Positions 15,849 through 47,906 of a stretch of DNA of 51,677 nucleotides are shown here, piece after piece. Both the position numbers and the translations under genes were made by a program. The stretch comes from a virus: IMG/VR virus record IMGVR_UViG_3300022602_000142, positions 1 through 51,677 of that record. The stretch is one strand, 5' to 3'. Numbering within the stretch: position 1 is the stretch's first letter; every line of letters starts with the position of its first letter. Below the pieces are notes generated by a model that was not told the DNA's origin, ran no database searches, and was given only the letters and a program-made list of their open reading frames with translations.

Positions 15849-17900
15849 CTATTTTGATGTTGCTCTATATACGCCATCCCAATTATCTGGAACATCAGTT
15901 TCCATACGCTCAAGCATTAGTTCATAATACTTGTGTAATTCGCCGTTCCAGCCTTTTGCCAACAAACCATCGTTTTTCATACCATTGATGTAAAACTTGG
16001 CAGTTTTCCAATCGCCTTTACGATATGATAACAGAAACTTCTTATGTTTGTCAAGTGCTAGACTGTCATCAAATGGAGCAACTGTGTAAATTTTTACAGG
16101 TTCGGTTTTACCTTTTACCGCAATTAAATCTAATTCAATAACTGTAAATTCATCACAGACTAATTCTGCTGTTCTTGGCCCGAGGATGATTTTGACTCCA
16201 TAGGGTTTGCTTTGTCCTTCCAATCTACTAGCGAGATTGACACCATCCCCGAGACATGTGTAGTCAAAACGTTGAGTGCTACCCATGTTACCAACAACCA
16301 CTGTATCGGTATTAATGCCAAGACCCATACCAAAAGCAGGCACTCCTTCTTTACTAATTTCTTCATTAAATTTCTCCAAATCTTTTAACATTGCTAGACC
16401 TGTGCGCAATGCGTTTTTAGCATGGTCACTGTCATCAAGTGGAGCGTTCCAAAATGCCATTTGAGCATCACCTATGTATTTGTCTAGTGTGCCGTTATTT
16501 TCTAGTATTTTAGCAGTCATTGCTGTCATGTAACGGTTCATGATTTTTGTTAGACCCTGAACATCTTTGCCATAGTGTTCACTGATTGTAGTAAAGCCAC
16601 GAACATCAGTAAACATAATACTAAGTTCACGACTTTCGCCACCAAGTGCTAATAGTTCAGGGTTCTTTTGTAACTTCTCAACCATTGCAGGGCTGAGATA
16701 TGTGCCAAACTGTTTCTTTATTTGTTGCTTTTGCAGGAATTCGCTAACAAACTTGACACCATAGGCATGGAGTGACACAAGGAGTATCGCTCCAATGGGG
16801 AAAGTGATATCAAATAGTAAAAGATGATTACTAAAAATATAGTGGCTAGCATACGCAATGCCAGTAACAATGATAACAACCGATCCCAAACCCACATATA
16901 CATACCTCGTTAATAGTAATAATACTATACCTAACACCAATATAGCAAGTAATTCGGCGCCGTCAGCATAATCTGGGCGACTAATCACAACACCATTCAT
17001 CATAGTGTTTAATAAATGTGCTTGTAGATAATGTGGATACACTGCGCCAATACTTGTTGGTACTGGGTTACTAATGCCCGCAGCAGTTGGGCCCACAATT
17101 ACTACACCGCCATTGAAATCTTTTGGCAAATGTGACAAACTACTAATATTAAAACTTTGACTGTAATCTACCCAAACACGACCCAAATTATCTGTTGTAA
17201 TAGGACCATATTGAGGTATGCGCATTTTTTCAACGCCAAGTTCATTGAGTTTAATTTGTGTTGTAGTGTCACCACTTGCTACACGCAATATTTCCATAGC
17301 AAGACTTGGATATAAGTTACCATCTACACTTGTAATAAGTGGCATTCTGCGTGTAACACCGTCAACTTCTGACAATGTATTAACTGTACCAATGCCCACA
17401 GCATTTTGTTCAAGTACAGGTATGTTAGCAATAATGCCTGGGTACTTTACAATGCGATCTTGAAAGTCACTGTTGATTACAGCAGTACCAGGTTTTCTTG
17501 GAATATTTTTAGTTTTATCACTTGGCACGTTTACTAGTACAACAGGATGTTGATACATAGCACTTGCTAAAGCACTGTCGCCATTTAATCTATCAGGTTC
17601 ACTAAACATAATGTCTAATACTACTAGACCTGCGTTTCTAGCATATAACTCGTTTACGATTTTGGCATATTCAGTTCGTGGCAATGGCCATTGTCCATAC
17701 TTGTTAAGTGCTTCTTCGTCAATGTTTACGATAGTAATAGGACTATCAATTAACGCACTGGGTTCTTTGTTGGCAATAAGCGTATCAAAGTAACGCAAAC
17801 GTATGCTTTCTACAAAATGTGTATCGATTACTCGTACAGTTAGTACAAGTGCTAATGTGAGTAAGGCAGTCCAAGGACTGAGTAGTATTTTCTTTAACAT
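15849..17900 (-). CDS. CHASE2-domain membrane adenylate cyclase (class III)
   Basis: The 683-aa protein has an N-terminal membrane anchor (about residues 8-25), then a CHASE2 extracytoplasmic sensor (about 30-300, with IVNIDEEAL and GLVVLDIMFSE). Three membrane segments follow (about 315-385), then a class III cyclase domain. Both metal Asp residues (432 in FTDVRGF, 478 in KYIGDAQ), Lys474, the TCLGD Thr548, Asn555 and Arg559 are present, so it should be active and prefers ATP by the Lys/Thr pair. It is the downstream gene of the curli-FecR cluster. CHASE2 cyclases neighbouring FecR proteins are known in bacteria; in a phage this is unusual. Confidence 0.92.
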   Translation of the reverse strand: MLKKILLSPWTALLTLALVLTVRVIDTHFVESIRLRYFDTLIANKEPSALIDSPITIVNIDEEALNKYGQWPLPRTEYAKIVNELYARNAGLVVLDIMFSEPDRLNGDSALASAMYQHPVVLVNVPSDKTKNIPRKPGTAVINSDFQDRIVKYPGIIANIPVLEQNAVGIGTVNTLSEVDGVTRRMPLITSVDGNLYPSLAMEILRVASGDTTTQIKLNELGVEKMRIPQYGPITTDNLGRVWVDYSQSFNISSLSHLPKDFNGGVVIVGPTAAGISNPVPTSIGAVYPHYLQAHLLNTMMNGVVISRPDYADGAELLAILVLGIVLLLLTRYVYVGLGSVVIIVTGIAYASHYIFSNHLLLFDITFPIGAILLVSLHAYGVKFVSEFLQKQQIKKQFGTYLSPAMVEKLQKNPELLALGGESRELSIMFTDVRGFTTISEHYGKDVQGLTKIMNRYMTAMTAKILENNGTLDKYIGDAQMAFWNAPLDDSDHAKNALRTGLAMLKDLEKFNEEISKEGVPAFGMGLGINTDTVVVGNMGSTQRFDYTCLGDGVNLASRLEGQSKPYGVKIILGPRTAELVCDEFTVIELDLIAVKGKTEPVKIYTVAPFDDSLALDKHKKFLLSYRKGDWKTAKFYINGMKNDGLLAKGWNGELHKYYELMLERMETDVPDNWDGVYRATSK

Positions 17901-17910
17901 GATCGCAGCC

Positions 17911-18483
17911 TTAATGTCTAATATAACTATAACTACCGCAAATAAGGCAACTTATAGTCATGCTGCCACTGTTACTTACTGTAGGATTGTCCTGTATTAC
18001 AGTAACTGTTGCACCGCTGCTTCCATTGAGTGTTAGACTAAAACTTTTATCTGCTCCTGAATTTCCACTCTGTGTAACATTAACTGTATTAGCACTATTT
18101 AGCGTTCCTGCTGTAGTTGACAGTATGAAGGTGTTGTTACTTGCTCCTGATTGAGTGACACTAATGCCATTGGCATCACCGACAACGCCATTGATTTTTG
18201 CTACATTATTGCCTGAGCCACCTTGTATAACATTAAATGTATTGTTAATACCACTTTGTAAATCTATGCCAGCAATCAATGATCCAGTACCATTTTGTGT
18301 GACAGTAAACGAATTGCCGTCAACCGGGCTCATAAAGCCAGCAGTGATTTTGATATAGTCACCGCTATATTCTTGACTGACATTATATGTGTTATTGTCA
18401 CCAACCTGATTGATATAGATGTTTGGGTTATTCTGAGCAAAACAAGTTAATGGAAACAATAATAGTAATAGTAAGTATTTCAT
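17911..18483 (-). CDS. Curlin-repeat secreted protein
   Basis: The 190-aa protein starts with a signal peptide (MKYLLLLLLFPLTCFA). It then has about six imperfect repeats built on N-x-(V/I)-x-Q-x-G-x-x-N, for example NTFNVIQGGSGNN and NTVNVTQSGNSG, the pattern of curli subunits CsgA/CsgB. It ends with a pair of Cys residues (ISCLICG). It would be exported by Sec and then by the CsgG pore, forming amyloid-like fibres. It starts on the FecR stop (TAATG). A second curlin-like gene lies at 19622. Confidence 0.8.
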   Translation of the reverse strand: MKYLLLLLLFPLTCFAQNNPNIYINQVGDNNTYNVSQEYSGDYIKITAGFMSPVDGNSFTVTQNGTGSLIAGIDLQSGINNTFNVIQGGSGNNVAKINGVVGDANGISVTQSGASNNTFILSTTAGTLNSANTVNVTQSGNSGADKSFSLTLNGSSGATVTVIQDNPTVSNSGSMTISCLICGSYSYIRH

Positions 18484-19613
18484 TAGTTTTGCCTCAATAT
18501 AATTGTACTACTTTTGCCGTCATTGACACGGTTCTTAATAGTCACGCCATTTTCAATCATTGTTATTGTAACACGATCTTGCGTTGTGGTAGTAACACTT
18601 TGGACATCGCTGCCGTCATCACGACTTAATGTTACATTTATTGGGGTGACTAATTTAGTCACATTACTACTTGGAAACCAATCTGGCAATAATTGATTTT
18701 CTGGATTTAACATATTAGATAATAATGCTGCTGCGTCCATACGTAACTGCTCACTTAATATATGAAAGATATCATCTAAAAAGTTTTGCTGTAACAATGA
18801 AATAGCCAATGGATCATCACCCAATGGATTATAATTTGCTAGTTCATTTTTTAAGAAATCTTGTTTAAGATAATCAATATCTAACATGTCACCATTTTGT
18901 CTAATTACATTGGTGTCTTTGCTAACTTCCTGTTGTTTGAATTCTTTGGGTGGGCTAACGATCAATAAGTTATTAATCTGATTAGGATTCAAATTAAGTA
19001 CAACAGGTTTACTGGGAGCAAGTTGTCTACTAACAACTTTTGTACCCATAAAGGGTTTATCTAATGTAACGCTACCTGCGTCATTATAAACATCAATAAC
19101 ACCTGTCTTACAATCGGTTTCTACATTAATATAGTTTGCAGGACAACTTGGCAATAGTATAATACTACTCTCGCCAAACTCATCTACAACTGCGCTGAAA
19201 TCTGTACCACGAACTGCCACAGTGGCTGCGGGTGTGTTAATGTTCACACTGTTAGGATTGTTATGTGCTATAGCGCCACTAGCATAGCGTACTGTGCCAG
19301 CAGCAAACTTTAATCCTAGTTTGTTGGGAGTTTTACCTTTGGGATCATAAACAAAATCATCAATAACAAGTTTGCTATTTTCATTGACTTGTACTTTAGT
19401 ATCATCAACAAATGTAATATCGGCAATGCCTAATGTTGTTTTGATTGTGTCGTTCATTTCAACGCCAGTACCTTTAGTACCTTGTAATGTATTTTTGTCA
19501 CGAACGATTTGTGGAACTGTTTTAACTTGATTTGTAATACTACCCACACTAGCATAAGTGTGGGGTGAGAATATCAATAATAATAAACCCAACCCCACAT
19601 ATCTTTTAGTCAT
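18483..19613 (-). CDS. Secreted FecR-domain protein
   Basis: The 376-aa protein has a signal peptide (to about residue 21, HTYA). It then carries a FecR domain: GVEMNDTIKTTLG, ADITFVDDTKVQVNENS, AGTVRYASGAI and NINTPAATVAVRGTDFSAVV. The last is the typical end of that domain. The C-terminal 180 residues are of unknown type. Standalone periplasmic FecR proteins next to CHASE2 sensors are thought to act in signal detection. Here it lies between two curlin genes, suggesting it senses or anchors the fibre. Confidence 0.85.
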   Translation of the reverse strand: MTKRYVGLGLLLLIFSPHTYASVGSITNQVKTVPQIVRDKNTLQGTKGTGVEMNDTIKTTLGIADITFVDDTKVQVNENSKLVIDDFVYDPKGKTPNKLGLKFAAGTVRYASGAIAHNNPNSVNINTPAATVAVRGTDFSAVVDEFGESSIILLPSCPANYINVETDCKTGVIDVYNDAGSVTLDKPFMGTKVVSRQLAPSKPVVLNLNPNQINNLLIVSPPKEFKQQEVSKDTNVIRQNGDMLDIDYLKQDFLKNELANYNPLGDDPLAISLLQQNFLDDIFHILSEQLRMDAAALLSNMLNPENQLLPDWFPSSNVTKLVTPINVTLSRDDGSDVQSVTTTTQDRVTITMIENGVTIKNRVNDGKSSTIILRQN

Positions 19614-19621
19614 TATAACCT

Positions 19622-20479
19622 CTAGTGTGTATTCGAACTAATGGTAAATGTATTACCGCTGCCCGTACTGTGTAAGTTTATAGTACTATTAAAACTAGTA
19701 CCTAACTGTGTAATGTTTGCGATGTTACTACTACCAGTTAAACTAATTACAAAGGTATGCCCTCCTGAACCTGTACCTCCTTCTTGATCTAATGTTACTT
19801 CGTTGCTTGCGCCTACAATTGTAATACTTGCTGACCCATTGTCATCAGTGGTAGCACTAGTTGTGCCACTTAGATTTACCGCAGTAAGACCTATAGCACT
19901 TCCACCTATACCTTGATTGACAACTACACTGTTATTACCACCACCTGAGATGTCAATATTTTGTGTTATATTGCTACCATTGATAGTAGATATCACACTG
20001 TTATATGAACCACCTGCAGTTGTAATTGTACTGCTGTTCTGACTACCAAGCATAAAGAATTTTAACAGTGAATAATTACCTGTTAATGTAGCAGATAAGT
20101 TATTGCTTTCGCTTTGACCAGTACCGTCGCCGTTACTGTCAATAATCGCATTGCCATTATTACCTGTTAAACTATAGGTGTAATTATTACCATTGCTAAC
20201 TCCATTTGCTGTAGTTGTAGCAATACCCATGCTTAATGTATTACCTGTACCAACTTGGTTTATTGTAACATTATTGTTGTCGCCATTAATAATCGCAGGA
20301 TTGGTACTACCATTACCTGCTCCTGGCAACCCTTGTAAAATATTACCCGCACCATCTTGGTTTACACTTACAGTAGCATTGCTACCAGTTTGACTGATAT
20401 AAATGCTGTTATCTCCTGCAACTGCTGTAACAGTTATTAATAATCCTAAAACTAAGGCCATTAATTTACTGAACTTCAT
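19622..20479 (-). CDS. Curlin-repeat secreted protein, second copy
   Basis: The 285-aa protein has a signal peptide (about residues 1-22, ending AVAG). It then has curlin-type repeats such as NSIYISQTGSNATVSVNQDG, NNVTINQVGTGN, NSVVVNQGIGG and NIANITQLGTS, separated by longer Asn/Gly/Ser/Thr insertions. It is larger and less regular than the 17911 protein, so one may act as nucleator and the other as main subunit by analogy with CsgB/CsgA. It lies 1 nt downstream of csgG. Confidence 0.8.
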   Translation of the reverse strand: MKFSKLMALVLGLLITVTAVAGDNSIYISQTGSNATVSVNQDGAGNILQGLPGAGNGSTNPAIINGDNNNVTINQVGTGNTLSMGIATTTANGVSNGNNYTYSLTGNNGNAIIDSNGDGTGQSESNNLSATLTGNYSLLKFFMLGSQNSSTITTAGGSYNSVISTINGSNITQNIDISGGGNNSVVVNQGIGGSAIGLTAVNLSGTTSATTDDNGSASITIVGASNEVTLDQEGGTGSGGHTFVISLTGSSNIANITQLGTSFNSTINLHSTGSGNTFTISSNTH

Positions 20480-20480
20480 T

Positions 20481-21344
20481 TTATTTTTCCCCAGACACTT
20501 TATTATTGTTATTGGTTGTGTCTACATTTTTATTCCACCAAGATTCTTCAGGGGGTGGCATTGGATATTTGAAATCCCAAATCCCTTTATGTTCACCCTC
20601 TTTTATCAACTCTACAACAGCAGCCTCGATTGCGGTCTTAACTGCTAATGTTCCTGGCTCGTTTATTGTCAAGCCAGTTTCCAACTCAAACGACTGTGTT
20701 CCCTCTCTGAAGAATCTTAAGACAGCAACACTATCTGCCGTTGAGTATATTGTCTTAGTAACTGTAACTGCTACTAAGACTTTACCTGTAGCAACACTTA
20801 CTGCTCTGAGACTAATAACTACTATGTCCTTACTGTACTGTGTACTAGGACCAATGCCTAACCAACGATATGCGTAGCCACCACTTACTGTGCTGCTATC
20901 ATATCCTACAATACCACCTTCTAATATTATTCCTGCGAATAGCATTGGCGGCAATTGTTGAGCATCTTTACCTTCATAAGCATCACGCATTTGTTTAATA
21001 ATGGTGCGCTCTTTAATTAAGTCATCAACATTTGTTCTTTCTACCACATCGAACCATTGACCTTTGCCTACATTTTGTAATGCTTGTATTAAGAATGGTT
21101 CTGCACCTTGTGTAACAGCACTGCTAAAACTAGCATATGTGCCACTGTTTCTGCGTTGACCTGTTAAATCTGTAAATTTATAAACACTTACTATAACTTT
21201 AGGACTTGCTGGAGGAGGTATAATATCAAACTCACGCTGCAACCTATTAGGAGCGACAGTAGGCAATTCCTCTTTAAACATTTTCTGTTGTAACGCACAT
21301 CCAGTTAATGATAGCGTTAGTAATAATATTAATAACTTTTTCAT
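20481..21344 (-). CDS. csgG: Curli secretion lipoprotein CsgG
   Basis: The 287-aa protein has a lipoprotein signal with LTGC (Cys16 becomes the lipidated residue) and the CsgG body. KVIVSVYKFTDLTGQRR is followed by QNVGKGQWFDVVER, GIILEGGIVGYDS and the SVATGKVLVAVTVTKTIYS strand of the pore. CsgG forms the nonameric outer-membrane channel for curli subunits and requires a Gram-negative outer membrane. It overlaps csgF by ATGA. No csgE or csgD is seen in the window. Confidence 0.93.
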   Translation of the reverse strand: MKKLLILLLTLSLTGCALQQKMFKEELPTVAPNRLQREFDIIPPPASPKVIVSVYKFTDLTGQRRNSGTYASFSSAVTQGAEPFLIQALQNVGKGQWFDVVERTNVDDLIKERTIIKQMRDAYEGKDAQQLPPMLFAGIILEGGIVGYDSSTVSGGYAYRWLGIGPSTQYSKDIVVISLRAVSVATGKVLVAVTVTKTIYSTADSVAVLRFFREGTQSFELETGLTINEPGTLAVKTAIEAAVVELIKEGEHKGIWDFKYPMPPPEESWWNKNVDTTNNNNKVSGEK

Positions 21345-21817
21345 GGACCTGTTCCACTTCCTGTTATATTAAATGTGCCTAATGGTACAGTAATTGTTGT
21401 TGTGTTGCCTAAACTATCAGTAATGGTTAATTGAATATTACCGCCAGTGTTTTGCCAAAAGATTGTATTGCCTTGGAAACTAAATGTGCCACTTGTAGCA
21501 CTGCCACCTGCAAACATAGCAGTGGCTAAGTTTTGACTAACTTGTGCTAGTATTCTACTTTCTAAGTTGGCTAGGAATTCGTTTAATGGTGTGTTTTTAG
21601 CATCGTTGATGGCTTGTTGTTGAGCAGCCAATAATGCTTGTTGTATTGCTTGTTGGCGTGTGTATTCTTCGTTCTCAATTGTTAGAACATAGGTGCCGTA
21701 ATTCTGCCCATTAAAACTCGGACTTTTAAATTGAAAGTCTGGCAGTGGCGCACTGTTACTTCTTGTCACTACCCCCAGTAGTAGCAGGAACACTAGTGCT
21801 TGTGTTAGTTTTCTCAT
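21341..21817 (-). CDS. csgF: Curli assembly protein CsgF
   Basis: This 158-aa protein has a signal peptide (to about residue 23). Its mature N terminus, DFQFKSPSFNGQNYG, matches the CsgF segment that inserts into the CsgG pore. A Gln/Ala-rich helix (QQALLAAQQQAIND) and a beta-rich tail follow, giving the usual CsgF size. It is coupled to csgG. AAGGA precedes ATG 21817. Confidence 0.85.
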   Translation of the reverse strand: MRKLTQALVFLLLLGVVTRSNSAPLPDFQFKSPSFNGQNYGTYVLTIENEEYTRQQAIQQALLAAQQQAINDAKNTPLNEFLANLESRILAQVSQNLATAMFAGGSATSGTFSFQGNTIFWQNTGGNIQLTITDSLGNTTTITVPLGTFNITGSGTGP

Positions 21818-21898: not shown

Positions 21899-22210
21899 TC
21901 ATTTACTATCAACCTTAACTTTTTCTTTACCACCTTTACCCTGCGCTTTGTTTCTCAATTCTTGTGCGTCACGCAGTATAATAGTAGTATCTAACTTTTG
22001 TTGTAGTCTAATAATATCATTATCCAACATTCTAATTCTGTCAATCAAAGCGATTAGTGTAATGTTACTTTCTTTAAGCACATTCTCAATGTGATTAGTA
22101 ATATAGTTCCATATAAACCATACTAAGTAAAGCAACATAACACTTGATACAATAGGAAAGCCATATTGACTTATTAAATCACCTATTTTTGCTAATGCTT
22201 GTGCTTCCAT
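21899..22210 (-). CDS. Holin-like (UviB/BhlA-type) small membrane protein (103 aa)
   Basis: One N-terminal membrane segment (about residues 15-36, YGFPIVSSVMLLYLVWFIW) is followed by a coiled-coil and a lysine-rich tail. This is the layout of UviB/BhlA-type holin-like proteins. The 93-aa gene at 22383 has the same layout and the same GFPI(V/A)S start to the membrane helix, so the two are probably paralogues. Position next to curli genes could mean a lysis role or a role in moving curli subunits. Confidence 0.55.
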   Translation of the reverse strand: MEAQALAKIGDLISQYGFPIVSSVMLLYLVWFIWNYITNHIENVLKESNITLIALIDRIRMLDNDIIRLQQKLDTTIILRDAQELRNKAQGKGGKEKVKVDSK

Positions 22211-22399
22211 TTACCACGTCACTTTAATCAAATTAACTATTCCATCTACAATCTTGACAACGAATTGCTCATCTTCTTTGACATTAAGTTCTTCTGCTGT
22301 TAACTTCTTGTCAAATACTATGTTGTGCCCTTCGGTCAAGGAAAACTTATACTTGAAAGTAATATCTTCTGATTCCATAGGTTTAGTCTCGTCTTGCAT
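22211..22399 (-). CDS. Small hypothetical protein between two holin-like genes
   Basis: No family recognised. The sequence is a short beta-rich domain (ITFKYKFSLTEGHNIVF, then EQFVVKIVDGIVNLIKV). The start is uncertain: ATG at 22399 has AAGG close upstream, while 22411 and 22378 are alternatives. The upstream TTG is unlikely. It ends one base before the 103-aa gene begins. Confidence 0.5.
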   Translation of the reverse strand: MQDETKPMESEDITFKYKFSLTEGHNIVFDKKLTAEELNVKEDEQFVVKIVDGIVNLIKVTW

Positions 22400-22664
22400 C
22401 GACCTTACCATCTGCTCTAGCGATGCGATCAATGTCTGGTTTAAGTCCTAACAAATTGCTGATAGTCATATCAACACGAATTACATCATTGTTCATGGTT
22501 TTAACACGATTGTCTAATGCTGTAATTATACCCTTTAACCCCATAACCTTGTCACTTACCCCTTTAAGTATGTACTTTACACTTAAAAAGATAAAGAATC
22601 CACTAAGCATGGCACTTGCGATTGGAAATCCTACCTTACCTATTAAATCAAATACTGCTTCCAT
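22383..22664 (-). CDS. Holin-like (UviB/BhlA-type) small membrane protein (93 aa)
   Basis: An N-terminal membrane helix (GFPIASAMLSGFFIFLSVKYI) precedes an amphipathic helix with alternating Ile/Val and charged residues and a basic tail. It is the first gene of the curli transcript behind a GCTAAATA box and has AGGTG before its ATG. Same layout as the 21899 gene. Confidence 0.55.
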   Translation of the reverse strand: MEAVFDLIGKVGFPIASAMLSGFFIFLSVKYILKGVSDKVMGLKGIITALDNRVKTMNNDVIRVDMTISNLLGLKPDIDRIARADGKVDARRD

Positions 22665-23118: not shown

Positions 23119-23715
23119 CTATTTATTAAAAATACTCCATTCTGTGTAACATACTTCTCTTGAGACTGGCGCACCTCGAACTAATTGATCTACACAATGT
23201 CCAAATGCGTTATTGTGTATTATAACACTATTAGCATAGCAAGGAAAGGTAATTCCATAATTATTGGGTGAATTGCATACGCGCAGTCTACCATCGTATA
23301 ATTTATCGTATTCACTGTCCCAAAAACTATGATGATAAAACACTGCTACCCAAAATTTATTGACATCATTAGTTGGGGGCAATGGATGGTGTTTATGCCA
23401 GTGAACCCCATTATATCGATTATTAACTAACATGTTAAAGTTAGTCATACTAGCATTTAAATTTAAATTTAAAAAAAAGTTTTTTATAATTTTTGCATAT
23501 GACACAAAATCTATGCCTATGTGTGGCTCCCAACTGTCTAAGTCTTTCCAATTTTTTATTCTATAAAAAACTTTTTCATTTGATGTTATATTGGGACCAG
23601 TAAAGTCGTATATTTTTTGTTTGGAAATTTGTAAATTTGAAAATAAATCTTGATCTAACACATCAAGAATTTGAAATATTTTATGATCATCTAGTGTATG
23701 TTCAATTATTTCCAT
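23119..23715 (-). CDS. 2-oxoglutarate/Fe(II) oxygenase-like protein
   Basis: The 198-aa protein has a cupin-like core: HWHKHHP (His105/His107), then WVAVFYHHSFW, DGRLRV and a distal IIHNNAFGHCVDQL block with His173. SREVCYTEW follows, with Arg186 in the 2OG-carboxylate position. This fits phage 2OG-Fe(II) oxygenases of the prolyl-hydroxylase type. It overlaps the YafQ-like gene by 10 nt, and its last codons contain the AATAAATA box of the next gene. Target unknown. Confidence 0.55.
   Translation of the reverse strand: MEIIEHTLDDHKIFQILDVLDQDLFSNLQISKQKIYDFTGPNITSNEKVFYRIKNWKDLDSWEPHIGIDFVSYAKIIKNFFLNLNLNASMTNFNMLVNNRYNGVHWHKHHPLPPTNDVNKFWVAVFYHHSFWDSEYDKLYDGRLRVCNSPNNYGITFPCYANSVIIHNNAFGHCVDQLVRGAPVSREVCYTEWSIFNK
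23120..23127 (-). promoter_or_regulatory. T4-type late box AATAAATA
   Basis: The box sits in the last codons (Asn-Lys-stop) of the 23119 gene. Five nt (GTATT) separate it from ATG 23114, which places the predicted first transcribed base on the A of ATG. Confidence 0.6.
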
Positions 23716-26337: not shown

Positions 26338-26778
26338 TTATTCTCTTGCTGTTTTTAATGTTGCTTTTAACATCCATACCTTTTTAGTATAGAGGTCTTG
26401 CAATTCTGCCATATAATTGGCAATACCCTGTGCATTTTGCTGTGTGGCTAAATCAAACACACGCAAACTTAATTGACTCATTGTTACACTGTTTTCTAAT
26501 AATTCTTTGAACATTAATTCTGCTCGTGGAATCATTGGTTGTTCTTGTATAACACTAAGTTCAATCATACGACTTAAAGTTTCTGGACTGTAAACATCTA
26601 ATGTGCGAATGTATTCAGCAATTACATCAATTGTTTCATATACTTCTTCATAAAATTTATTTAAAAATTTATGATATTGTGGGAAGTTGCTGCCTTCGAT
26701 ATTCCAGTGAAATCCATGTATCTTTGTGTATAAAACAAAGGTACTACCCAATAGCGTTTTTAATTCATCTGCTAACAT
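26338..26778 (-). CDS. Dps/ferritin-like protein
   Basis: The 146-aa protein is a four-helix bundle with HGFHWNIEG (21-29), then HKFLNKFYEEVYETIDVIAEYIR, the Dps ferroxidase signature (HxxxxH/W...D...E). Dps proteins bind iron and coat DNA. Here it lies directly upstream of the nuclease and behind a TCTAAATA late box with AGGA before the ATG. A role in protecting phage DNA from oxidative damage is likely; the basic N-terminal DNA-binding tail of classical Dps is missing. Confidence 0.8.
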   Translation of the reverse strand: MLADELKTLLGSTFVLYTKIHGFHWNIEGSNFPQYHKFLNKFYEEVYETIDVIAEYIRTLDVYSPETLSRMIELSVIQEQPMIPRAELMFKELLENSVTMSQLSLRVFDLATQQNAQGIANYMAELQDLYTKKVWMLKATLKTARE

Positions 26779-29792: not shown

Positions 29793-29936
29793 ATATTGTA
29801 TTTATCGAAAGAAAGTAACTTTTGGTTTAACTTAACCCACTGACTGTGTAAGTATGCTGCTTCGTTATAATGTTCTTCTAATTGTAAAAAATTAATTATG
29901 CTATAGTAAATGTCTTTTGATAATACTGATTCAAAT
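29789..29936 (-). pseudogene. 3' part of a frameshifted gene, read in the +1 frame
   Basis: From the TGA at 29931 the +1 frame stays open to TGA 29791-29789. It encodes about 45 residues of ordinary-looking protein (FESVLSKDIYYSIINFLQLE, then HYNEAAYLHSQWVKLNQKLL). Its stop forms an ATGA overlap with the next gene, as genuine neighbours do. It has no start codon of its own, so it is the continuation of the 29931-30158 frame. Confidence 0.6.
29799..29806 (-). promoter_or_regulatory. T4-type late box GATAAATA
   Basis: The box lies in the final codons of the frameshifted gene. Six nt (CAATAT) separate it from ATG 29792, giving a predicted leader of 1 nt. Confidence 0.65.
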
Positions 29937-37993: not shown

Positions 37994-38674
37994 TTATGGT
38001 TGTTTCAAACAAGTGTACATTGGGCTTATTTTCCCATCAAAAAGTATGCTTAGATAAGCATATATGCTGGGTTCGTTAAATTCTATAAAATATTTGCCAA
38101 AAATAACATTTGAATGTACTGCAGGAGTAGTAAACGCATGTACTACAGCGGGGCTTATTCTATAATTTGTGTTATTTTTATGGGATTGTACGAATTCTTC
38201 TAAATTTTTAAAAGTTAAACTTTTTGTGTGCCCAGTGGTTACATAAACACGATACTTAAACTTTGGTTCTTTAGCAAAATAAAGATCATATTTTCCTAGA
38301 CCTGCTATACGCTGAGTAAATTTAACATCTGTTTCTATATCAAGTACAGTTTTTAGTTTTTCTAAATCTTCACCATACGCACTAAAAACAAAACTTTCAC
38401 CTCGAAATTTAAATATATACCTATGGTAATTTACCCAGTCTAACAGTTTTTCTAATTTATCAAAATCGTGATTTTCTACTTTTGTATAATCATAATCATC
38501 AGCCAGTTTGAAAATTTTTATAAAGTTATAATGATTTTCAACATGAGTTTTCAAATCTCTTATATTTTTACTTTTGGTGATCCATTGCGCGCCGTTTATG
38601 TTAAACTTTGCACGATAAGGATATCTGTCATAGAATAGTTGTCTACATTCAATTTTCAAATTTAATGATGCCAT
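37994..38674 (-). CDS. Hypothetical protein (226 aa)
   Basis: Start set at ATG 38674 (GGTG upstream) instead of TTG 38683. It overlaps the clpA end by 26 nt. The protein is basic, with Tyr- and Lys-rich strands (FYDRYPYRAKFNI, RYIFKFRGESFVFSAYGEDL) arranged as two or three similar alpha/beta units. No family recognised. Position after clpA and before a late box suggests it is cotranscribed with the chaperone genes. Confidence 0.55.
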   Translation of the reverse strand: MASLNLKIECRQLFYDRYPYRAKFNINGAQWITKSKNIRDLKTHVENHYNFIKIFKLADDYDYTKVENHDFDKLEKLLDWVNYHRYIFKFRGESFVFSAYGEDLEKLKTVLDIETDVKFTQRIAGLGKYDLYFAKEPKFKYRVYVTTGHTKSLTFKNLEEFVQSHKNNTNYRISPAVVHAFTTPAVHSNVIFGKYFIEFNEPSIYAYLSILFDGKISPMYTCLKQP

Positions 38675-40922
38675 CTTCACCAACTACAGCATTTACTTTC
38701 TGTGATACATTAAACTCAATAGTATTATCAACTAAATTTGTTAACACATTGGCATCACGAATACGCTCAAACAATATCTTTTTACTTAATGGCACACGAA
38801 TCAACTCGTCAATCTTACGTGCTAATGGCCTTGCTCCCATCTTACTATCGTATCCTTCTTTAGCAAGATACTCGATAGTTTCTTCATTTAAGTTAAGTGT
38901 GATATTGTGTTTTTCTAACAATGGAGTTTTGATATCCTCAATAAATTTAACAACGATTTTCTTAATGCTTAACATATCAAGTTTGTTAAACTTACATACC
39001 ATGTCCAGACGATTTCTAAACTCTGGCTTAAAGAATTGCTTTAATGCTTTGTCATCTTCACCTGATTTTTCCATAGCACCAAAGCCAATGTTGTTACGTT
39101 CATTATCACTACTGCCCAAGTTACTGGTCAAGATAATAACACAGTTTTTACAACTGACTTCTTTACCATTGCTGCCAGTAATACGTCCCTCATCTAGTAT
39201 TTGTAAGAAGATATTGAATACATCAGGATGTGCTTTTTCAACTTCGTCAAACAACATAATAGCATGTGGATGTTTGCTTAAATCACTAATTAATCGCCCA
39301 CCTTGTACTTGACTATCACCGAAGCCCACATAACCTGGGGGAGGTCCAATCAATGCACTTACAGTATGTTTCTCACTGTATTCACTCATATCATACTTGA
39401 GCAATGGCATATCAAGATTGTTGCTTAATAATTTAGCAAGTTCGGTTTTACCTGTGCCAGTTGGTCCCAAGAATAAGAAACTTGCGATTGGTTTCTTTTC
39501 GTTGGCGATGCCAGCAAAACTTACATAGATACGTTCTAATACCTTATCAACTGTTTCATCTTGGCCATATAGTTTGCTCTTAACGTTTACGTCAAGGCTG
39601 CTGATACGTTCTAAGTTATCACCATTGAGTTTATTAGCAGGCACACCTGTATATTTTTCAATTTGTTGATAGATCATTTCTTTAGTAATGATTGCCCCAT
39701 CATTGCCAAGTACTTTTTGTTTAGCACAAGCAGCGTCTAACAAGTCAATACTTTTATCTGGATTTTTCTTATCACTGATATAACGTGTAGCACCTTCAAC
39801 CGCGGCTTTAATACTTTCATCACTGATGTTTACATTGTGAAATTCATTTAGTCGTGATGCCAAGCCGCTTAGAATACGCACGGTTGTTTCTTCGTTTGGT
39901 TCGTCAACGCTGATCTTATAGAATCTACGCATCAACGCACGATCTTTTTCAAAACTTTCGTAGAACTCTTCCCATGTTGTACTTGCGATTACTTTTAATT
40001 CACCCTTAGTAATAGCAGGCTTTAACATATTAGCAAAGTCTGGTCCGCCTCTTTCACTGCCATTACCAGCACCGCGCATTGTATGTGCCTCGTCAATAAA
40101 GAGAATTGCTTTTTTCTTTACACGTAATGCTTCCAATACGTGCTTGACTTTTTCTTCAAACTCACCACGAAAGCGGCTGCCAGCAAGTAATGCACCAATT
40201 TCTAAACTATAAAGTGTGTGATCTTTTAAGAAGTCTGGAATTTCATTTTTATGAATAGCAAGTGCAATGCCTTCAGCAATAGCAGTTTTACCTACACCTG
40301 GGTCACCAACTAACAATACGTTGCTCTTAAATTTCTTAGCAAGTACGTTAATAATATCATCAATTTCTTTTGTGCGTCCAATTACTGGTTCAATCTTATC
40401 TTGTTTTGCTAACTCACTAAGATTAGTTGTGTATTCCTGTAAGATTTCATCGGCTTGTTTATCTGTAATGTTACTTGTAATAGAGCCGTTGTGTTTATAA
40501 TTTTCTTGCCAAAACTTAGCAAACTCCATTTTAGTTACGCCATACTTTAATAAGAAGTATTGTGCGTGGCTGTGACCTTCAGCAAGAATACTTAAATATA
40601 AATCAATAGTTAATACTTGTTTGCGACCAGTGAACATAACTTGACTAACACTGCGATTGATCACACGTTCTAAACTAGAAGTTTTACGTGGCTGTACATT
40701 AGGTTCTTTAGAAACAATACTTGTTAAACTATCCAAATATACCGATATCTCTAATGCTAATTCATCAACTGCACATCCATAAGATGCCATTACTTTTTTA
40801 AATGGGGGAAATGAAATTAACCCCAATAGTAAATGTTCCACAGTCACATATTGGTGATTGTGTTCTTTTGCATACTCAATGGCATGTTCAATGATATTTT
40901 CAATTTCTGGATTTTGTAACAT
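38649..40922 (-). CDS. clpA: Full-length ClpA unfoldase subunit
   Basis: At 757 aa it equals bacterial ClpA (758). An N-domain (1-140) is followed by AAA1 with Walker A GDPGVGKT (206-213) and FIDEAH, and AAA2 with GPTGTGKT (486-493) and MLFDEVEKAHP. The ClpP-docking loop is kept: NIGFGA, with IGF at 612-614. It therefore could dock on host ClpP and redirect proteolysis, or work alone as a remodelling enzyme. It lies 14 nt after dnaJ, in a short-leader AATAAATA context. Confidence 0.95.
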   Translation of the reverse strand: MLQNPEIENIIEHAIEYAKEHNHQYVTVEHLLLGLISFPPFKKVMASYGCAVDELALEISVYLDSLTSIVSKEPNVQPRKTSSLERVINRSVSQVMFTGRKQVLTIDLYLSILAEGHSHAQYFLLKYGVTKMEFAKFWQENYKHNGSITSNITDKQADEILQEYTTNLSELAKQDKIEPVIGRTKEIDDIINVLAKKFKSNVLLVGDPGVGKTAIAEGIALAIHKNEIPDFLKDHTLYSLEIGALLAGSRFRGEFEEKVKHVLEALRVKKKAILFIDEAHTMRGAGNGSERGGPDFANMLKPAITKGELKVIASTTWEEFYESFEKDRALMRRFYKISVDEPNEETTVRILSGLASRLNEFHNVNISDESIKAAVEGATRYISDKKNPDKSIDLLDAACAKQKVLGNDGAIITKEMIYQQIEKYTGVPANKLNGDNLERISSLDVNVKSKLYGQDETVDKVLERIYVSFAGIANEKKPIASFLFLGPTGTGKTELAKLLSNNLDMPLLKYDMSEYSEKHTVSALIGPPPGYVGFGDSQVQGGRLISDLSKHPHAIMLFDEVEKAHPDVFNIFLQILDEGRITGSNGKEVSCKNCVIILTSNLGSSDNERNNIGFGAMEKSGEDDKALKQFFKPEFRNRLDMVCKFNKLDMLSIKKIVVKFIEDIKTPLLEKHNITLNLNEETIEYLAKEGYDSKMGARPLARKIDELIRVPLSKKILFERIRDANVLTNLVDNTIEFNVSQKVNAVVGEDGIIKFEN

Positions 40923-40933
40923 AGTTCTCTCTG

Positions 40934-40941
40934 TATTTATT
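40934..40941 (-). promoter_or_regulatory. T4-type late box AATAAATA before clpA
   Basis: Eleven nt (CAGAGAGAACT) separate the box from ATG 40922, so the predicted leader is about 6 nt, too short for a normal Shine-Dalgarno sequence. Confidence 0.5.
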
Positions 40942-41728
40942 TAAAACGTTTTATCGCATCTATCAAATTACTATCAATATTATCAGGAATGTAAGGCTTA
41001 AGCAATATAATCTGGTCGCCATATAACCCACTATTCATTATGGGCATACCAAAACCGCCTAATTTTAATTGACTATGTGGCTGTGTTCCAGGTTTTACAT
41101 TTACATTAAGAGTCTTACCCGAAATAGTTGTAAATTCAAAATTGCTGCCAACAATCAAATCAAAAACACTAATACTGTGGTTACATACTAAATTGTTTTC
41201 GTGACGTTCAAAACGCAAATCGGGCATAACAAAAAATTCTACTAATAATGTAGCATTATCTATCAACCCATCATATCGCAACTGCTGCCCACTCATTATA
41301 CCTTTTGGAATATCTACACTAATGGGAGTAGTATTTGTTTGTGTTTGTACGTTTAAATATTGTTTTGAGCCATTAAATGCATCTTGTAATGACACATTAA
41401 GTCTTGTTCTATATGTAGGTTTACTATTGCGTTGTTGCCCAAAGGGACTTCTGCCGCCAAATGCACTAGCAAATAAATCATTTAAATCGAACCCCTGCTG
41501 ACTAAAATGAAAGCCACCTGGCATTCCCTGCATTTGTGGGCGTGGATTATCATACAAGTTACGTTTTTGTGGGTCGCTTAATGTATCATAAGCAGTTTGT
41601 ATTTCTTGAAATTTTACTGTGTCACCGCCCTTATCAGGATGATGTTGACTAGCCAATTTACGATAGGCTTTTTTAATTTGATCTTGTGTTGCGTCTTTAT
41701 TAACGCCCAATACTGAATAATAATCCAT
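40937..41728 (-). CDS. dnaJ: DnaJ/CbpA-type co-chaperone
   Basis: The 263-aa protein has a J-domain with HPD at about residue 30, then a Gly/Phe-rich stretch ([22 protein letters not shown]) and C-terminal substrate-binding beta domains, but no CXXCXGXG zinc repeats. It is thus class B (CbpA-like). It would stimulate host DnaK. The promoter TTGACA-N17-TAGAAT lies so close that the transcript should start at the ATG. Confidence 0.9.
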
Positions 41729-47898: not shown

Positions 47899-47906
47899 TA
47901 TTTATT
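47899..47906 (-). promoter_or_regulatory. T4-type late box AATAAATA
   Basis: The predicted start near 47893 leaves a leader of about 13 nt with AGGA before the fibre-gene ATG at 47880. Confidence 0.55.

Follow-up and report, generated by a model that had tools for sequence, protein, structure and literature searches.

A CHASE2-Class IIIb Nucleotide Cyclase Encoded at the End of a Phage-Borne Curli Cassette

Introduction

Why would a T4-like phage carry a membrane cyclase with an extracytoplasmic sensor domain, and what could such an enzyme do among curli genes? This question was raised by the open reading frame at 15849-17900 of the window studied here, namely the whole stretch of 51,677 nucleotides that was analysed. 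The original prediction regarded the frame as an intact CHASE2 cyclase encoded by a phage and as a new way to steer host physiology.

Curli genes of pelagimyophages were described by Zaragoza-Solas et al. in 2020, and curli, FecR and cyclase genes of pelagiphages by Wittmers et al. in 2022. The earlier report described a curli operon in which the cyclase was not included (PMC7029224), and the later one described FecR, an adenylate cyclase and a "histidine kinase" together with the curli genes, with transcripts found in metatranscriptomes (PMC9599517). In the 2022 paper on the phage Melnitz, a lysis role (pinholin or secretin) was proposed for CsgGF, and the cyclase was not mentioned (PMC9004378).

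Results

Phage Origin of the Window

The window is an IMG/VR virus record, and the cassette that contains the cyclase is flanked by T4-type DNA polymerase and sliding clamp genes on one side and by a clamp loader gene on the other. Relatives of the cyclase are encoded in at least 587 IMG/VR stretches, and the best 80 of these lie on contigs of up to 344 kb; most of the virus records compared are fragments. The source was confirmed as a real T4-like phage, and the claim that the cyclase is phage-encoded was borne out. Elsewhere, the window encodes a Clp-type AAA+ ATPase (757 aa, with Clp_N) adjoining a DnaJ homologue (38649-41728), a ferritin-like protein of Dps-type length (26338-26778), and a non-specific DNA/RNA endonuclease (PF01223; 25503-26336), which has a lipoprotein-like N-terminus and is probably exported.

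Active Site and Predicted Structure of the Cyclase

A Pfam search identified CHASE2 (PF05226) at residues 16-328 (E=2e-43) and Guanylate_cyc at residues 424-606 (E=3.6e-18) of the cyclase. The metal-binding Asp pair is D432 and D478, the purine-specifying Lys/Thr pair is K474 and T548, and the transition-state Asn/Arg pair is N555 and R559; all six matched their counterparts in CyaC when the sequence was aligned to 1wc1 with HMMER. The cyclase is intact as predicted, with both Pfam domains and every class III catalytic position present. We concluded that this frame apparently encodes a working membrane cyclase whose active site is of the class IIIb adenylate cyclase type and whose predicted product, from K474/T548, is cAMP.

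Structural modelling, which had been suggested as a check, gave an AlphaFold model with a mean pLDDT of 86, in which the low-confidence stretch was the loop at 538-546. In the model, a single transmembrane (TM) helix at the N-terminus is followed by an extracytoplasmic domain of mixed alpha/beta structure, and three further TM helices precede the cyclase domain; the TM/helix spans are 9-25, 312-330, 334-359 and 366-398. From the PF05226 match and the model, the CHASE2 domain sits between the N-terminal TM helix and the three TM helices, so the presence of an extracytoplasmic sensor domain on a membrane-bound cyclase is well supported. The fold search used the whole model, and the structures listed cover the cyclase domain only; the closest solved fold was CyaB 3r5g (Z 22.7, 186 aligned residues, rmsd 2.6 Å), and CyaC 1wc1 also matched (Z 21.8, 183 residues, 2.2 Å). 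For the CHASE2 part, no significant sequence match was found in the PDB.

Conservation of and Selection on the Cyclase

Residues D432, K474, D478 and R559 were kept in 83/83 viral homologues, T548 in 78/83 and N555 in 79/83. The exceptions at the latter two positions were a Melnitz-like group (T to D and N to S) and HTVC008M (T to S). Cyclases of the Melnitz-like group, in which Asp replaces the purine-specifying Thr and Ser replaces the Asn of the transition-state pair, are encoded at L082:8932-10983 and in L067, L078 and L081; these substitutions suggest an altered activity or substrate, and activity may therefore differ between lineages. Among 20 close pairs, dN/dS of the cyclase domain was 0.014-0.09 where dS was computable, so the conservation of the active site is far beyond chance, and the whole-gene values were 0.05-0.16. 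These ratios indicate that the catalytic domain is under strong purifying selection, and since the catalytic residues are also kept, a degenerate relic was rejected, in agreement with the original prediction.

Gene Content and Linkage of the Cassette

A type VIII (curli) gene set carried by the phage ends with the cyclase, in the order CsgF-CsgG-curlin-FecR-curlin-cyclase (Table 1). The original prediction gave neither the strand of the cyclase nor these neighbouring genes. The window CsgG was 48% identical to the CsgG of Melnitz, and no anti-sigma N-terminal region was seen by eye in the FecR-domain protein. The periplasmic gate CsgE (PF10627) had no match in 14 phage records, and the E. coli control was positive.

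Table 1. Features of the cyclase-curli cassette and its upstream region in the window.
Coordinates	Strand	Feature	Evidence and remarks
15849..17900	-	CHASE2-class IIIb nucleotide cyclase, 683 aa	ATG start; N-terminal TM, CHASE2, 3 TM, catalytic domain, C-terminal tail
17911..18483	-	Curlin-repeat protein 2, 190 aa, N-terminus resembling a signal peptide	Curlin_rpt 19.8 bits, slightly below the cut-off of 20.7; position conserved
18483..19613	-	Exported FecR-domain protein, 376 aa	PF04773 E=1.5e-9; phrog_37870; signal peptide read by eye
19622..20479	-	Curlin-repeat protein 1, 285 aa	Curlin_rpt 22.5 bits, above the cut-off
20481..21344	-	CsgG outer-membrane curli pore	PF03783 E=1.4e-44; lipobox LTGC read by eye
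21341..21817	-	CsgF	PF10614 E=1.4e-16
21899..22210	-	Small one-TM coiled-coil protein	phrog_18771 1e-23; phrog_4898 holin 8.7e-5 (weak)
22383..22664	-	Second small one-TM coiled-coil protein, paralogue	phrog_18771 7.4e-28
23120..23126	-	T4-late-type box ATAAATA, tentative	Precedes the gene run leading into the cassette

CsgG was present in 40/40 fully flanked viral cyclase loci of IMG/VR, which have 7.5 kb or more on the upstream side and 7 kb or more on the downstream side, and the order CsgF-CsgG-curlin-FecR was found in 66 of the 69 viral loci with CsgG. Since both locus sets were chosen by the cyclase, a reverse count was made from CsgG, in which 25/30 CsgG loci with at least 6 kb downstream had a cyclase within 10 kb. 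Among the remaining five records, four encode a cyclase elsewhere, at a distance from CsgG that the coordinates put at about 17-21 kb, and the last is a fragment of 30 kb. The cyclase lies on the strand opposite CsgG in 10/69 viral loci, and a single shared transcript is therefore not universal. We concluded that the unit is the whole curli cassette and not the lone cyclase.

Head of the Operon, Tail ORF and Late-Type Boxes

A pair of phrog_18771 proteins heads the operon in the window, Melnitz and HTVC008M, at the position of the published "histidine kinase" (PMC9599517), and relatives of these small proteins adjoin the cassette in many viral loci. Searches of 14 phage records gave no histidine kinase ATPase domain above the cut-off, and a histidine kinase at the operon head was rejected. 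Immediately upstream of CsgF, 28 viral loci (for example L035:17128-17499, L031:16795-17166 and L007:2044-2439) have a short stand-alone ORF (about 100-135 aa) whose product is homologous to the cyclase's C-terminal tail and had no match in Pfam, PHROG or the phage records.

The box ATAAATA is rarer than chance in the window (15 observed and 41 expected), and 9 of the 15 lie at most 64 nt upstream of a gene start. The 15 sites include those at 47899-47905, 40934-40940 and 29799-29805, and most of these ATAAATA(C) boxes lie just before gene starts, as T4-like late promoters would. Late expression of the cassette from such boxes is only suggestive.

cAMP Receptor and Sigma Partner

The cNMP-binding domain (PF00027) was absent in 19 phage records, including six contigs larger than 260 kb and two complete genomes, and 10/14 control genomes were positive. 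A phage-encoded cAMP receptor was rejected on this basis, and any effect of the cyclase must therefore run via a host receptor. ECF sigma region 4 (PF08281) had no match in 14 phage records, with 13/14 control genomes positive. A role of FecR as an iron/sigma regulator was accordingly rejected, with a host sigma factor being possible, and FecR therefore looks like a periplasmic partner.

Bacterial Relatives

FecR was encoded directly upstream of a CHASE2 protein in 19 of the 68 bacterial loci scanned, and the output domains varied. In a Burkholderia biofilm operon (BiofilmReg), a LysM/FecR gene adjoins a CHASE2 kinase (PMC5192318), and in S. meliloti, the outer-membrane barrel NsrA senses a plant-protein signal and CHASE2 cyclases then raise cAMP (PMC13001267).

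The phage cyclases form a strongly supported clade with the cyclase of Hyphomonas sp. TMED17 and a few bacteria-binned contigs, which look phage-derived; except for these, the clade is separate from the sampled bacterial CHASE2 cyclases, a sample that does not include the S. meliloti proteins. TMED17 carries CsgF-CsgG-curlin-FecR-CHASE2 cyclase among cellular genes on a 705-kb contig (L084:5942-12037), and it is one exception to the published statement that bacterial curli operons lack FecR and cyclase. Neither FecR nor a cyclase was found near the curli genes in any of the 20 other alphaproteobacterial curli loci fetched. The TMED17 CsgG is sister to the phage CsgG of L005/L009 (100/99), apart from the curli CsgG of its own family, and the operon is probably a phage-type cassette. 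A bacterial donor lineage was not accepted, as this single bacterial operon has a phage-type CsgG and gives no direction of transfer.

Discussion

Considering the above results, we propose with moderate confidence that the cyclase forms the sensing and output end of the phage's type VIII (curli) cassette, with its cAMP read by host proteins. CsgG and CsgF would form an outer-membrane pore during infection, through which the curlin-repeat proteins would be exported, and the periplasmic FecR protein and the CHASE2 domain may act as a sensory pair, as they apparently do in bacteria, a coupling that the bacterial parallels suggest for the phage. CHASE2 would then read the state of the periplasm or curli assembly and switch the cytoplasmic cyclase dimer, resulting in cAMP, which may be read by a CRP-type regulator or another receptor of the host and may adjust the infected cell during assembly of the new surface structure. 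Candidate benefits to the phage are aggregation, exclusion of other phages, uptake and lysis timing. The domains, the catalytic residues, the model, dN/dS, the csg linkage and the bacterial FecR-CHASE2 parallels support this proposal; the absence of PF00027 and CsgE, the Melnitz-like substitutions and the loci with an opposite-strand cyclase stand against it.

Among the alternatives, the cyclase could be an independent metabolic hijack gene, whose cAMP shifts host carbon metabolism via CRP and which only hitch-hikes beside the curli genes. The intact adenylate-type active site, a late-type ATAAATA box of its own at most 100 nt upstream of the cyclase in 14/80 viral loci, and the strand opposite to csg in some loci are consistent with this. 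However, the linkage to csg is near-obligate across divergent phages, with CsgG in every fully flanked cyclase locus, and constitutive cAMP needs no periplasmic sensor domain, so we consider this explanation rather unlikely.

It is also doubtful, and somewhat more so, that the cassette is a lysis-timing or pore device controlled by cAMP and the holin-like small proteins. The pinholin or secretin role proposed for the CsgGF of Melnitz (PMC9004378) and the two weakly holin-similar phrog_18771 proteins at the operon head of the window, Melnitz and HTVC008M point in this direction, but the holin match is weak (E about 1e-4), and lysis alone leaves the curlin-repeat and FecR genes unexplained.

More speculatively, and at a low probability, the cassette might be a phage-made sensing circuit. 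The exported curli/FecR parts would register something happening at the cell surface, such as damage to the envelope, the presence of nearby cells or infection by a second phage, and the CHASE2 cyclase would respond with a pulse of cAMP. This pulse would set the time of lysis or shut other phages out of the cell, and the stand-alone tail protein, where present, would act as a regulator.

A role in nucleotide-based phage defence or counter-defence, either Pycsar-like or as a decoy ligand for such effectors, is highly improbable. PADLOC PycC models do match the cyclase domain (best 4.5e-24), but the match is confined to the fold that class III cyclases have in common. The annotated neighbours scanned include no recognisable effector, Pycsar systems are not characterised by a CHASE2 architecture or by linkage to curli genes, and K474/T548 predict ATP. 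Finally, CHASE2 cyclases are common in bacteria, but cellular contamination or a decaying passenger gene is hardly credible and was refuted by the T4-type genes on both sides of the cassette, the long contigs that carry relatives, the same operon in two cultured phages, and a catalytic-domain dN/dS below 0.1.

To return to the proposed sensor-output role, a cyclase that probably senses the envelope is retained intact and under strong selection by many phages (relatives in at least 587 IMG/VR stretches), almost always with a curli pore next to it. Why phages carry curli genes therefore becomes testable through a simple assay, which would ask whether cAMP levels during infection depend on the pore or on FecR. 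Our findings count against reading FecR as an iron regulator and favour a long-standing pairing of FecR with CHASE2 in bacteria. The cyclase is already annotated in Pelagibacter phage HTVC008M and Methylophilales phage Melnitz, and the gene cluster was published in 2022 (PMC9599517), so a "new way to steer host physiology" was overstated. What is new is that the cassette occurs in T4-like phages of much greater size. Further additions are the tests of residues and selection, the lack of a cNMP-receptor gene in the 19 phage records, one bacterial chromosome (TMED17) with a probable phage-type cassette, the stand-alone cyclase-tail ORF, and the identification of the small holin-like proteins that head the operon.

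Compared with known systems, the phage cassette lacks the CsgE of the canonical type VIII secretion system and the partner ECF sigma factor of FecI/FecR cell-surface signalling, in each case as judged from 14 phage records. It shares CsgF, CsgG and curlin proteins with the canonical curli operons of Alphaproteobacteria, whereas, among the loci fetched, FecR and a cyclase are nearby only in Hyphomonas sp. TMED17. The Burkholderia BiofilmReg operon (PMC5192318) likewise encodes an exported FecR-domain protein beside a CHASE2 sensor in a surface/biofilm setting, but its output is a kinase and a response regulator, and it has no curli genes. The bacterial CHASE2 adenylate cyclases CyaD1, CyaD2 and CyaK of S. 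meliloti have the same domain architecture, predicted topology and class III output as the window cyclase. Melnitz (MZ577097; PMC9004378) has the same six-gene order and a cyclase 40% identical over 96% of the query, which differs in having Asp for Thr548 and Ser for Asn555. HTVC008M (NC_020484; PMC9599517) has the same six genes in the same order, with the cyclase last and 39% identical over 85% of the query, whereas the window, compared with that pelagiphage cluster, belongs to another and larger kind of T4-like phage, with relatives reaching 344 kb.
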